NCBI RefSeq assembly: GCF_009258225.1
Contig: NZ_CP043617.1
Location: 1 to 64,000, forward strand
DNA from: Sulfurimonas lithotrophica
GTDB lineage: Bacteria > Campylobacterota > Campylobacteria > Campylobacterales > Sulfurimonadaceae
Direction: 5' to 3'
Length of the DNA: 64,000 nt
Under the pieces are notes generated by a model. It did not search any database. It saw nothing but the letters and a program-made list of their open reading frames with translations, and had not been told where the DNA came from. Made by a program: the position numbers and the translations under genes. Below are positions 101 to 16,663 of the stretch, in pieces (the first letter of the stretch is position 1; each line of letters starts with the position of its first letter).

Positions 101-1408
101 TTAAACGTTAGTTGTTAGTTTATTTGTAAGCTCATCAATTTTTACTTTAAAGTCCTCATCGTTTTCTATAAGTGAATTTATTTTTTTAATAGTATGTGAA
201 ATAGCAGTATGATCTTTCATACCAAAATATTGAGCTAACTGAGGCATAGTATTTTGAGTTAGTTCGCGACAAAGGTATATAGATATACGTCTAGCATAAA
301 CAAGGTTTTTTGCTCTTCCTTTAGATGTTATTTCACTTGGTTTTATATTTAAATCTTTTGCTACAAATTTAGTAATGTTATCAAGAGTAAGGTTGGCTGT
401 TTTTTCTTGCATCTGATCTTTTAGTACATTTTTTGTAAAGTCGAGGTCTATATCTACATGCATCAGTTGTGAATAAGCATGCAGTTTTGAGAGTATCCCT
501 TCTATCTCACGAACATTACTCTCTATAACGGTAGCAATATAATTAATGATATCTTTTGAGAGTTTTACTTTGTTTATCTCAGATTTTTTCTCAATTATGG
601 CGATTTTAGTTGTTAACTCAGGCGGTTGAATATCTGCAACCAGTCCCCATTCAAATCTGCTTTGAAGTCTTTTTTCAAGTCCGCCTATTTTTTTAGGATG
701 TTTGTCTGCTGTTAGTATTATCTGTTTGCCTGCTCCTTTTAGAGCTTCAAATGTATGAAAAAATTCTTCTTGAATAGTATCTTTGTTACTTAAGAACTGA
801 ATATCGTCTATTAAAAGTACGTCACATTTGCGGTATTTTTCTTGAAATCTATCCATAGTCTGGTTTCTTACATGGCGTATAAAGTCGTTTAAAAACTGCT
901 CAACCGTAGTATAAATTACGCTTTTGCCCTGATCTTGAAAAACATTTCCCGCTGCTTGCATCAAGTGGGTTTTTCCAAGACCGACACCACCGTATATAAA
1001 AAGAGGGTTGTAAACTTCACCCGCTTTTTCACTAACACTCTTCACTGCCGAGTATGCAAACTGGTTTGAACCGCCTACCATAAAGTTATCAAATGTATGT
1101 GAAGGGTTTAAAAGTGATTTTGAAGTTGGTTTTTCCTCTTTTTTCTTGGTTTTTCTTTTATCAAAACTGTCTTTTAGAGTTATTTTAACAGTAACGTTGT
1201 TTGATGTTTTAACTTCAAACAAATGTTCGAGTTTAGATGTATATTTATTTTTTATCCAGTTGCAAACTAAAGTATTTGGTGCATAATATACGGCTAAGTC
1301 ACTGGTTGATTTTTTAGAATCATAGTCTAATTGTTTAATATAACGGTTATATTCAACCTCTGTTATCTCTTCTTTAAGTTGTAATAATATCTCTTGACCA
1401 ATATTCAC
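101..1408 (-). CDS. dnaA: Chromosomal replication initiator protein DnaA
   Basis: Initiator ATPase that binds DnaA boxes, melts oriC and loads the helicase. At 435 aa it has normal length. Domain I covers about residues 1-85, followed by a Lys-rich linker, and the AAA+ domain starts near 105. Walker A GGVGLGKT is at about 140-147 and Walker B is LLIDDIQFL. Domain IV has the DNA-binding signature DHTAISHTIKKI near the C-terminus. The start is GTG at 1408, because the overlapping ATG frame stops at once. The start codon lies inside a DnaA-box-like sequence (minus strand ATGTGAATA), which suggests autoregulation. Non-coding DNA rich in DnaA-box motifs flanks both ends. Confidence 0.98.
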   Translation of the reverse strand: MNIGQEILLQLKEEITEVEYNRYIKQLDYDSKKSTSDLAVYYAPNTLVCNWIKNKYTSKLEHLFEVKTSNNVTVKITLKDSFDKRKTKKKEEKPTSKSLLNPSHTFDNFMVGGSNQFAYSAVKSVSEKAGEVYNPLFIYGGVGLGKTHLMQAAGNVFQDQGKSVIYTTVEQFLNDFIRHVRNQTMDRFQEKYRKCDVLLIDDIQFLSNKDTIQEEFFHTFEALKGAGKQIILTADKHPKKIGGLEKRLQSRFEWGLVADIQPPELTTKIAIIEKKSEINKVKLSKDIINYIATVIESNVREIEGILSKLHAYSQLMHVDIDLDFTKNVLKDQMQEKTANLTLDNITKFVAKDLNIKPSEITSKGRAKNLVYARRISIYLCRELTQNTMPQLAQYFGMKDHTAISHTIKKINSLIENDEDFKVKIDELTNKLTTNV

Positions 1409-13085: not shown

Positions 13086-13994
13086 TTGCCATTTAAACTA
13101 AAGCGTTTTTATAGTCCGACAAAACAAAGAGCTTTTAAATTTCTTGTAAATGAACTCGGCATCTCTCAAAAGCAATCTCAACGAGATATTGCAAACGGTA
13201 GGTTATTCATAGATGGTAAAGCTATGACAAAACCAACTGCTGAAGTTGAAGGTCATTTTGAATTTGTAGTTTATGAACCAAGTACCAGAGGGTTAAAACC
13301 TATTAGAGTAGAAGATAAGTTTGTTGTCTTTGATAAGCCAAGTGGTGTATTGATTCATCCTCAAAATAGAAATACGGAATACTCATTAGTAGATGAACTA
13401 AAATATCAGTTTGGGTTAGATGCAAATATAGCACATAGAATAGATCAAGAAACAAGCGGACTAGTTTTGTGTGCCAAAGATAAGCAAAGTGAGAAAGATA
13501 TAAAATCTATGTTTGAGTTTCGTGACATGAATAAAACTTACTTAGCTTTAGTCCACGGAAACTTTGAAAATGAGATAACTATAGATGAACCTTTACTTAG
13601 ACGTGAAGATGAAAGTGCTATCGTTAGAATGGTTGTGAAGGTTCATAAAGATGGTAAAGCATCTAAAACATATTTTAACCCGTTAGAGTATTTTCCAAAA
13701 GCAAATATGACCCTAGTTGAGTGTAAACCATATACTGGAAGACAGCATCAGATTCGTGTACATTTGTTTCATGTGAAACATCCAATAGTCGGAGATCCAA
13801 TTTATGGACAAAAAGAAGAAGATGTACTAAAATTTTTAGATAAAAAAATATTTGAACATGAGAGAATAAAACTTAGTGGAGCATCCAGACTTATGCTTCA
13901 TGCATCTGAATTAGAATTTGATTTATATAATAAAAACTATAAGATATCCAGTAAAGAAGATTTTTTAAACGAAGTATATAAAGTAGTGAAATAA
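13086..13994 (+). CDS. RluA/RluD-family pseudouridine synthase
   Basis: A 302-aa RNA pseudouridine synthase. The N-terminal S4 RNA-binding domain is at about residues 20-75 (LGISQKQSQRDIANGRLFI). The catalytic motif is AHRIDQETSGLVLCAK, with catalytic Asp in HRIDxxTSG. The C-terminal motif is GRQHQIRVHL. The start is TTG at 13086 with an AAAAGG site 8 bases upstream. The exact rRNA or tRNA target cannot be told from sequence alone. A near-perfect parS site is embedded in its coding sequence at 13765-13780, read as the peptide LFHVKH. Confidence 0.92.
   Translation: MPFKLKRFYSPTKQRAFKFLVNELGISQKQSQRDIANGRLFIDGKAMTKPTAEVEGHFEFVVYEPSTRGLKPIRVEDKFVVFDKPSGVLIHPQNRNTEYSLVDELKYQFGLDANIAHRIDQETSGLVLCAKDKQSEKDIKSMFEFRDMNKTYLALVHGNFENEITIDEPLLRREDESAIVRMVVKVHKDGKASKTYFNPLEYFPKANMTLVECKPYTGRQHQIRVHLFHVKHPIVGDPIYGQKEEDVLKFLDKKIFEHERIKLSGASRLMLHASELEFDLYNKNYKISSKEDFLNEVYKVVK
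13765..13780. promoter_or_regulatory. parS-like ParB-binding site inside the pseudouridine synthase gene
   Basis: The 16-mer TGTTTCATGTGAAACA is a perfect palindrome except at its centre. It differs by one base from the widely conserved bacterial parS TGTTTCACGTGAAACA. Its reverse complement is identical to the site at 16648-16663. Position about 12 kb from dnaA agrees with known origin-proximal parS clusters. The parAB genes are not in the window. Confidence 0.8.
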
Positions 13995-14093
13995 GCAGTT
14001 ATTATTTGCTTTACTATTTAGTCCTCGATGGTCCTTCGGACAACATCTGCGGTTCCGAACCTACAAATAATAAGCAGTTATTATTTGCTTTAC
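13990..14093. repeat. 25-bp direct repeat pair with palindromic core
   Basis: Two identical copies of a 25-mer starting AATAAGCAGTTATT lie at 13990-14014 and 14069-14093, 79 bp apart. Each copy can form a small hairpin (AAGCA/TGCTT). The intervening 54 bp hold two further perfect short palindromes, GTCC-TTC-GGAC and GGTTCCGAACC. This looks like a dispersed intergenic repeat element, but only this pair is visible in the window. The first copy overlaps the stop codon of the upstream gene. Confidence 0.75.
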
Positions 14094-14390
14094 GGTTCTC
14101 ATGTGAATAACTTTAAAAGATAAATGTATACTTTTTGTATCACTTGTTATTTTTTATTATCAAATTCTTTATAAAGCCCTGAAAATAGGACTTTAAGCTA
14201 TGTTAAAGATATTTGATTTAAGTAATAATTTAGATAAAAAAACTCTTAATATATTTATAATTTTTCAAATTCTTTGTTAATATAGATTTATGTTATTCAC
14301 AACTTAGAACAATGTGTGAATAATACACATAAACATATTTTATATATATAAATTATATTATTTTAAGATTATTTTTTATCACAGAAAGGA
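14094..14390. other. Non-coding region with DnaA-box cluster and AT-rich flank
   Basis: No credible gene is seen. Three exact copies of the nonamer TTATTCACA occur at 14102-14110 (reverse), 14293-14301 (forward) and 14315-14323 (reverse). The last two form an inverted pair 13 bp apart. They are followed by an almost pure A/T stretch at 14330-14378. The arrangement resembles an initiator-binding locus (oriC-like or datA/DARS-like), about 12.7 kb from dnaA. Function is inferred only. Confidence 0.5.
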
Positions 14391-14393
14391 TTA

Positions 14394-14555
14394 TTTTTCT
14401 ATAAGAAAAAGAGGGTATTATTACATGTATAAACGACCTTCCTGGTGTGTTGGTCGTTTGCATATAAAATAATGAATTTGTTTGTGGAAGTTGGTTGACC
14501 GAATATACGAAAACCTTAATCATCTTCTGGCTAAACATTTGTATAGCAAATGTTT
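14394..14555. other. Three consecutive hairpins in non-coding DNA (possible structured RNA)
   Basis: Stem-loops are at 14394-14410 (TTTTTCT/AGAAAAA), 14431-14459 (AAACGACC/GGTCGTTT, 13-base loop) and 14533-14555 (AAACATTTG/CAAATGTTT, 5-base loop). The last lies 18 bp past the stop of the 81-aa gene and could be its 3' hairpin. No terminator-like T-run was seen on either strand for the middle one. The segment could encode a small RNA. Confidence 0.4.
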
Positions 14556-14573
14556 GCTCATGCGATGGGTTTT

Positions 14574-14819
14574 CTACACTTTATTATATCTATTAATAAT
14601 CTTTTTAACGCGCTTCTTTAGTTTACGTAATGCTTCAACACTAGTTTCACCGTCTGCAGTTAAGTTTTCAAAACCATCGTCAAATTGAGCCTTAGCAATC
14701 CAACCGATTTTTTTATGATATTTGATACCAACAAAGCGGATATCTCCAAAATGTTCTTCACACAAGTCATAGATGCGTTTAATACGCTCTGTATTAGTTT
14801 TTTTTGGAATGTCTGACAT
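14574..14819 (-). CDS. Small conserved hypothetical protein (81 aa)
   Basis: An 81-aa basic protein I do not recognise. It has two amphipathic helical ends (NTERIKRIYDLCEEHF and VEALRKLKKRVKKIINRY) around a beta-rich core (IRFVGIKYHKKIGWIAKAQF). No signal peptide or membrane segment is seen. An excellent AAAAGGAG ribosome-binding site lies 6 bases before the ATG. It follows the 35-aa membrane peptide gene by 55 bp and may be the last gene of the hisF-rlmN strand. The DNA- or RNA-binding look of the C-terminus is only a guess. Confidence 0.75.
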   Translation of the reverse strand: MSDIPKKTNTERIKRIYDLCEEHFGDIRFVGIKYHKKIGWIAKAQFDDGFENLTADGETSVEALRKLKKRVKKIINRYNKV

Positions 14820-14874: not shown

Positions 14875-14982
14875 CTAATCTTCTTTAGAATCATTAGACG
14901 TAGCTACTTTCATAAAACCAATAACACCTACTGCAAAAACAGCTACTAAAAATATTATTTGAAATATTTCAATATAACTCAT
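14875..14982 (-). CDS. Small membrane protein (35 aa)
   Basis: A short ORF encoding [20 protein letters not shown], then [15 protein letters not shown]. It has one transmembrane helix at about residues 5-25 and a charged C-terminal tail. Its ATG overlaps the rlmN TGA (ATGA, 4 bp) and has an AAGGA site 6 bases upstream within the rlmN end, so translational coupling is likely. I do not recognise the family. Similar one-helix peptides accompany respiratory complexes, but there is no such gene next to it. Confidence 0.65.
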
Positions 14983-16055
14983 GAGATTTCCTTATTTTTT
15001 TCTTTTAGCTGTCCACATGCAGCAGATATATCTATACCTTTTGAATCTCTAATTGTACATAATAAACCATGTTTTACAAGATACTCTTGAAAGTTGAGCA
15101 TATCTTTTAGTTCAGGTCTGTTATATGTAGTTCCGGGATAAGGATTAAAATATATCAGGTTTACTTTTGCCTTGATTCCGTGCAAAAGTTTAACTAATTT
15201 TTTCGCAGATGCTAAATCGTCGTTTTTATCTTTGATAACCAGATATTCAAACATAACACGCTTACGGGTATCTATAGGAAAGCGTTTAACAGCTTCTATA
15301 ATAGAGTTAATATTGTGAGCTTTATTCATAGGGATAAGCTCGGTTCTTAACTCATCATCTACGGCATGAAGTGATATAGCTATATGTACACCTAAATCCA
15401 TTGCACCCAGTTGGTCTATTTTATTGCTCAGTCCACTTGTAGAAACTGTTTGGCGTTTACCGCTTATAGAGAGTCCGTCTTCTTCTTTAAATATCTCTAT
15501 AGCCTTAGCCAGGTTATTTAGATTATCCAGAGGTTCACCCATACCCATATATACTATATTTATTTTACGGTTGTGTTTGTGAGCATTATCACGCTTAAGC
15601 GCAACAACTTGACCCACAATCTCCCCTGCACTCAAATCTCTTGTAAACCCACCTTTAGCCGTTAAACAAAAAGCGCATCCCACTTTGCATCCGACTTGTG
15701 TGGATACACAAATAGTATATTTTGCTTCATGGATAAGCTTGCCTGATTCATCGTAAACATCATCTTTCATTTTAAGCCATACTGCTTCTACGGTTTTACC
15801 GTCTTGAAGCTCAAAAAGATATTTTACTGTTCCATCAGAGGATACTTCTTTTTTTATTATTTTTAATGGATTAACTATATATTTTTTAGCTAGTTCTTCC
15901 TTTAAAGACTTAGGAATATTTTTCATATCATCATACTCAGATGCATAGTTATGGTATAACCAGCCCAGTATTTGTTTTACACGAAAGGAGGGTTTTATAA
16001 TGTCTAAAAGTTCTTTTTTTGTAAAGTCAAGAAGAGACGGTTTTAGCTCTGTTAT
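14979..16055 (-). CDS. rlmN: 23S rRNA/tRNA adenine-C2 methyltransferase RlmN, with apparent non-canonical start
   Basis: Radical-SAM methyltransferase acting on 23S A2503 and tRNA A37. The cluster motif is CKVGCAFC (CxxxCxxC), with GEPLDN after it and a final Cys in ISAACGQL. The first ATG (15926) would remove 43 conserved-looking codons, including a segment reading [18 protein letters not shown] and [16 protein letters not shown], which is typical RlmN N-terminus. An in-frame stop lies just upstream. Between it and the conserved part there is no ATG, GTG or TTG. The start must be ATA at 16055 (overlapping the upstream TAA as ATAA) or ATC at 16061 (6 bases after AAGGA). Full length is then about 358 aa. 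Confidence 0.85.
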
Positions 16056-16647: not shown

Positions 16648-16663
16648 TGTTTCACATGAAACA
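16648..16663. promoter_or_regulatory. parS-like ParB-binding site
   Basis: TGTTTCACATGAAACA differs by one base from the bacterial parS consensus TGTTTCACGTGAAACA. The palindrome extends to 10-bp arms (AAATGTTTCA/TGAAACATTT). It lies between hisF and the nucleosidase gene. A degenerate third copy (three mismatches) sits at 16694-16709. With 13765-13780 this makes an origin-proximal parS cluster. Confidence 0.85.

Follow-up and report, generated by a model that had tools for sequence, protein, structure and literature searches.

What is a second cluster of DnaA boxes doing in a non-coding gap about 13 kb from dnaA in the chromosome of Sulfurimonas lithotrophica? The window analysed here is the first 64 kb of contig NZ_CP043617.1. 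An initial annotation of it, made from the letters alone, had suggested that the cluster could serve to titrate or reactivate DnaA, or could be part of the active origin. We therefore examined the statistics, conservation, setting and known counterparts of the locus.

Distribution of the DnaA-box nonamer

Exact copies of the nonamer TTATTCACA were found at 14102-14110 (minus strand), 14293-14301 (plus strand) and 14315-14323 (minus strand). The three boxes span 222 bp and the last two form an inverted pair with 13 bp between them, as had been described. The non-coding region, estimated earlier at about 580 bp, measured 579 bp from the end of rluA (13994) to an 81-aa ORF (14574) and lies at the 3' ends of these two convergent genes; the nearly pure A/T run reported beside the boxes (14331-14380) was 94% A+T. 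One or two nonamers had been expected in 64 kb. Dinucleotide shuffles of the window gave 1.44, compared to 6 observed, and none of 100 shuffles reached 6. Two more copies lie upstream of dnaA, at 1477 and 1492, in agreement with the annotation, and one lies inside dnaA at 468. In the whole genome (2,415,083 bp, 2 contigs) 6 of the 27 exact copies fall in the first 14.4 kb, and others are dispersed as single boxes. At this genome-wide density (27 copies) a triple within 222 bp is expected about 8e-5 times per genome. The looser E. coli R-box consensus TTWTNCACA occurred 12 times in the window compared to 9.8 expected, which is no excess, indicating that the box signal is specific to TTATTCACA. 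The original observation is correct and understated.

Conservation of a 31-bp core

The inverted pair belongs to a core with the following parts.

14293-14323, plus strand: 31-bp core with the layout 9+2+9+2+9, TTATTCACA-NN-TTAGAACAA-TG-TGTGAATAA
14293-14301, plus strand: box I, TTATTCACA
14304-14312: middle 9-mer, TTAGAACAA
14315-14323, minus strand: box II, TGTGAATAA

Using the 31-mer TTATTCACANNTTANAACANTNTGTGAATAA with at most 3 mismatches, the core was found in 84 of 100 sampled Sulfurimonas genomes, in a single copy per matching genome, and the reversed pattern used as a control had no match in the 100; the copies share ancestry and so do not count as independent events, and many of the genomes are metagenome assemblies. 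An earlier core pattern without mismatches had matched only 13 of the 100 genomes, with unrelated pairs mixed in. Nine genomes at least 90% complete were missing the 31-mer pattern, and at least four of them (G037, G041, partly masked, G061 and G067) carry diverged copies at their rluA loci.

In the 76 aligned copies, TTCAC at positions 4-8 was invariant in both boxes of the pair, as in DnaA boxes of the Campylobacterota, and positions 1 and 3 varied. Footprinting has identified TTCAC at these positions as the core of DnaA boxes in the class, with S. denitrificans among the species concerned (Jaworski et al. 2016, PMC5043019), and it is mainly for this reason that we infer DnaA to be the ligand of the pair. 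The middle 9-mer TTAGAACAA was conserved yet asymmetric in the same 76 copies; read on the minus strand it is TTGTTCTAA, which matches the DnaA box at 6 of 9 positions without the TTCAC core. Versions of the pair are kept in the other Sulfurimonadaceae genera g2, g4 and g6, and in g4 the third box, too, is retained at a similar spacing. Order-wide matches outside the family were rejected as copies of the element, being oriC1 box clusters beside dnaA. The initial annotation had called for a conservation check in related species; genus-wide conservation and the invariant TTCAC core strongly support a second, functional DnaA-box cluster.

Sequences around the core

Five further features lie on either side of the core.

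14102-14110, minus strand: third DnaA box, TTATTCACA reversed, 191 bp upstream of the pair
14173-14194, plus strand: hairpin AAAGCCCT..AGGaCTTT, candidate rluA terminator
14217-14249, plus strand: AT-rich spacer motif, consensus TTTCAG...ATTTATATAAA.TA.TTCTTAAA from a 73-copy alignment
14331-14380: A/T run
14416-14459, plus strand: small-RNA-like unit with a -10-like TATTAT (14416-14421) and a stem-loop AAACGACC-TTCCTGGTGTGTT-GGTCGTTT (14431-14459)

The third box had the same orientation in each of the 73 copies whose flank was long enough and lay 183-192 bp from the pair in 64 of them; the 73-copy alignment gave a weak signal of helical phasing beyond this near-constant distance. The spacer motif was strongly conserved, several columns reaching nearly 2 bits (73 copies). 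The A/T run was not strongly kept as sequence across the aligned copies. The hairpin at 14173-14194 is a probable rluA terminator. A search of the region against Rfam returned nothing above threshold. An exact 25-bp direct repeat (13990-14014 and 14069-14093, 79 bp apart) overlaps the rluA stop codon and stops just short of the third box, and a diverged form of it is present in the close relative L008. The same relative is missing the approximately 95 bp between the downstream stem-loop and the 81-aa ORF (14476-14570), a segment with no repeat in the surrounding 404 kb.

In nearly all copies a -10-like GGGTATTATTACA lies 93-295 bp downstream of the pair, and a stem-loop comes after it. The loop is an almost invariant 13 nt, TYCCTGGTGTGTT, and the stem shows compensatory changes on both sides across the family (A-T to G-C, C-G to T-A); the hairpin in the window had a fold z of -3.2. 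The unit at 14416-14459 matched no Rfam family. In genus g6 (genome G286) a matching hairpin was found at approximately 316 kb while the DnaA pair is still at rlmN-rluA, indicating that hairpin and pair are separable, and we judged the hairpin to be a feature separate from the element.

Genomic setting and parS sites

The neighbours of the element and two nearby parS sites are given below.

13086-13994, plus strand: RluA-family pseudouridine synthase (rluA), conserved left neighbour
13765-13780: parS on the rluA side, TGTTTCATGTGAAACA, one mismatch to consensus, inside rluA
14574-14819, minus strand: conserved ORF of 81 aa, next on the right in many relatives though not in every one
14979-15926, minus strand: rlmN, conserved right neighbour
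16648-16663: parS on the hisF side, TGTTTCACATGAAACA, one mismatch

Every core copy inspected is flanked by purB-rluA on one side and rlmN on the other, the 81-aa ORF being present in some cases and absent in others, and the distance from dnaA was 7-13 kb in the genomes measured. With the 16-bp TGTTTCACGTGAAACA as consensus, two parS sites (0-1 mismatch) flanked the core in 15 of 15 genomes checked, and in each of these the rluA-side site lay about 0.26-0.53 kb from the core. The genome also has a ParB-family gene, at 864 kb and far from the element, which together with the two sites near oriC agrees with their assignment as parS. The parS-core arrangement is also present in other genera of the family.

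Location of the replication origin

The start of the window holds the following parts of the origin region.

1-100: window part of oriC2, with boxes at 30 (plus) and 40 (plus)
101-1408, minus strand: dnaA
1401-1500: oriC1 boxes upstream of dnaA, at 1401 (plus), 1434 (minus), 1477 (minus) and 1492 (minus)

Since dnaN is at the opposite contig end from dnaA, the chromosome was most likely opened between the two genes. A DnaA-trio, TAGTATTAGTAGTAGGG, and more oriC2 boxes are found at the opposite end of the circularised contig; the trio adjoins boxes at dnaA-dnaN, and similar repeats occur there in seven relatives. No DnaA-trio repeat was found at the element (13950-14620), which has no unwinding module of the oriC2 type, that is, a DUE with trio by an R1-type box.

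GC skew was computed from sampled genome stretches, with 4-fold-degenerate sites split by gene strand in 8 genomes. The cumulative skew ran through a broad valley that starts at dnaA and reaches to +15-40 kb, and its minimum was often near the second parS, 13-16 kb from dnaA; because of this breadth the cumulative curve alone does not separate dnaA from the element. The interval between them is rich in minus-strand genes, and in these the top-strand skew at 4-fold sites was +0.144±0.038 (8 genomes), compared to +0.148 and +0.213 on the right replichore and -0.028±0.015 on the left. Plus-strand genes agreed (+0.069 in the interval, -0.199 on the left, +0.03 to +0.05 on the right). The interval thus belongs to the right replichore, and the switch in strand bias falls at dnaA or to its left rather than at the element. 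The trio and the skew both point to dnaA-dnaN as the most likely start of replication, which agrees with what has been published on the class. The element is therefore probably not a replication start, and the suggestion that it might be the start site of the active origin is disfavoured, although it might still assist oriC by looping to it. A gene for a CbrR-like response regulator with a GGDEF domain (1568-2812) lies between ruvC and dnaA, which breaks the adjacency of these two genes usual in the class.

Comparison with datA, DARS and bipartite origins

In E. coli, boxes I and II of DARS face each other and head-to-head AAA+ contact of the bound DnaA molecules releases ADP (PMC8682772), while boxes 2 and 3 of datA drive hydrolysis of ATP-DnaA together with IHF (PMC10380432). 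We compared the element directly with the MG1655 DARS and datA sequences. The opposed polarity of its pair is common to DARS boxes I/II and datA boxes 2/3. Start-to-start distances are 14 and 12 bp in DARS1, 48 bp for datA boxes 2/3, and 22 bp in the element, or 11 and 11 bp with the middle slot. Like DARS1 and DARS2, the element is non-coding DNA outside oriC with three boxes, an inward-facing pair and conserved spacing, and it has the order (+)(-)(-) provided that the middle slot is counted. It departs from the DARS core of I(+), II(-), III(-) at short spacing in its non-canonical middle 9-mer and in its spacers, which are 2 and 2 bp where DARS1 has 5 and 3 bp; its two good boxes stand 13 bp apart. 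Its weak slot is the middle one and its extra box is 190 bp off. We found no IHF/Fis pattern of the DARS kind at the element, and DARS loci, unlike the element, are not beside oriC. With datA it shares a non-coding site fairly near oriC, an opposed pair with more boxes over approximately 190 bp, an importance of spacing, and proposed bending or looping of the DNA. However, datA requires an IHF site, and by eye no conserved IHF-like site was recognised in the 73-row alignment of the element; datA is also much farther from oriC (E. coli map positions 94.6 vs 84.6 min). By sequence the element appears datA/DARS-like, and we do not claim membership in either family.

The bipartite oriC1/oriC2 of S. 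denitrificans, A. butzleri, W. succinogenes and H. pylori use the same box sequence and TTCAC core, and oriC1 and oriC2 are looped together in vitro by the DnaA of this class (PMC5043019). The element would come in addition to these loopable clusters, 7-13 kb past dnaA, and differs from them in having no DnaA-trio or R1-type box plus DUE. In g20, another genus of the order, the oriC1 triple upstream of dnaA (L175:1501-1531, L176:1501-1531) has the identical 9+2+9+2+9 layout, TTATTCACAGGTGTGAATAATATGTGAATAA. Its middle slot is a perfect reverse DnaA box, giving (+)(-)(-) with 2-bp spacers. Homology to the element is not claimed; the triple shows that such a layout can hold three DnaA boxes.

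Possible functions of the element

Since its layout is kept in nearly all relatives and it is nested between two parS sites, the element probably represents a DNA switch, so far undescribed, for controlling the initiation of replication or for tying it to chromosome segregation. The best explanation, to which we assign a probability of about 0.52, is a DnaA-regulatory nucleoprotein locus outside oriC working like datA or DARS through its opposed DnaA boxes. DnaA would bind the two opposed boxes, whose separation is two helical turns, and also the box about 190 bp upstream; the middle slot might take a further DnaA molecule. With the AT-rich spacer bent or bound by protein, a compact looped complex would form and change the nucleotide state or availability of DnaA just after initiation. 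The fixed box distances and conserved spacer suggest such a defined complex rather than a sink. An effect after initiation is proposed because the element is replicated early, lies 7-13 kb from oriC inside the parS domain, and has boxes that face each other; its early duplication fits a datA-like role slightly better. Control of the datA/DARS kind would then operate in a genus for which no Hda was detected: in 8 Sulfurimonas genomes DnaA itself was the best match and no protein reached the Hda cut-off. H. pylori has no Hda either, and control of the nucleotide state of its DnaA has been called an open question (PMC8235120). Of the earlier proposal of titration or reactivation, a reactivation or other DnaA-regulatory site appears to be the best class, while plain titration is unlikely because the element holds only 3 of the 27 exact boxes in the genome. 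Several points count against the best explanation. Another protein could occupy the middle slot, which has no TTCAC, the box spacings depart from those of DARS and datA, and the closeness to the origin could be mere inherited synteny. In addition, a predicted 'oriC3' of S. denitrificans showed no DnaA binding in EMSA (PMC5043019); that locus may differ from the element, and if it is the same, confidence in DnaA binding drops.

The two parS sites, one of them close by, would also suit a coupling of replication to segregation, in which DnaA or another ligand of the core acts within the parS domain on ParB/ParA or on the architecture of the origin domain and not on the nucleotide state of DnaA. 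With parB itself far away, it is the sites that are retained here, and they recur with the core in other genera. On the other hand, many bacteria have parS sites close to oriC, so that parS and the element may be independent origin-proximal features, and the parS-core distance varies from ~0.26 to 0.53 kb; we consider this coupling rather improbable. Slightly easier to entertain, although still unlikely, is a composite Sulfurimonadaceae element: a looped three-box DnaA complex between parS sites would sense the state of the initiator and relay it to the ParABS origin domain, or the reverse, in place of Hda-type control.

Looping of oriC1 with oriC2 in vitro, the conserved AT-rich spacer and a cumulative skew minimum often near the second parS would speak for the element as a third sub-origin that contacts oriC1/oriC2 through DnaA-DnaA interactions and aids orisome assembly, or as an auxiliary origin. 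The skew of the interval, like the right and unlike the left replichore, and a canonical trio with box at dnaA-dnaN but not at the element make this quite doubtful. We regard as equally doubtful an operator at which DnaA, or a dimeric factor, would bind palindrome and upstream box to control the small RNA close by or the two convergent genes. A palindromic core with a distal box would suit a repression loop, and the -10-like box and stem-loop downstream are conserved; however, one copy per genome leaves no regulon, the element lies at the 3' ends of its neighbours, its distance to the hairpin is variable, and in g6 the hairpin has a separate genomic location. A chance cluster or passive sink without specific function might be suspected in AT-rich intergenic DNA of a genome with scattered single boxes. 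Judged from sequence comparison this is very improbable and largely refuted by conservation, neither the cores nor the spacing varying in 76 copies. The low expectation for a triple and too few boxes for plain titration also count against it.

Implications for DnaA control in the Campylobacterota

The control of DnaA in Campylobacterota is poorly known, and no locus dedicated to datA/DARS-like control in this class came up in the open-access subset of the literature that we searched. As a single-copy, precisely spaced and genus-wide element of approximately 225 bp, the locus is a small target for study in free-living laboratory species. Work on it could show if the class has datA/DARS-like control at all, and if such control is linked to the centromere.
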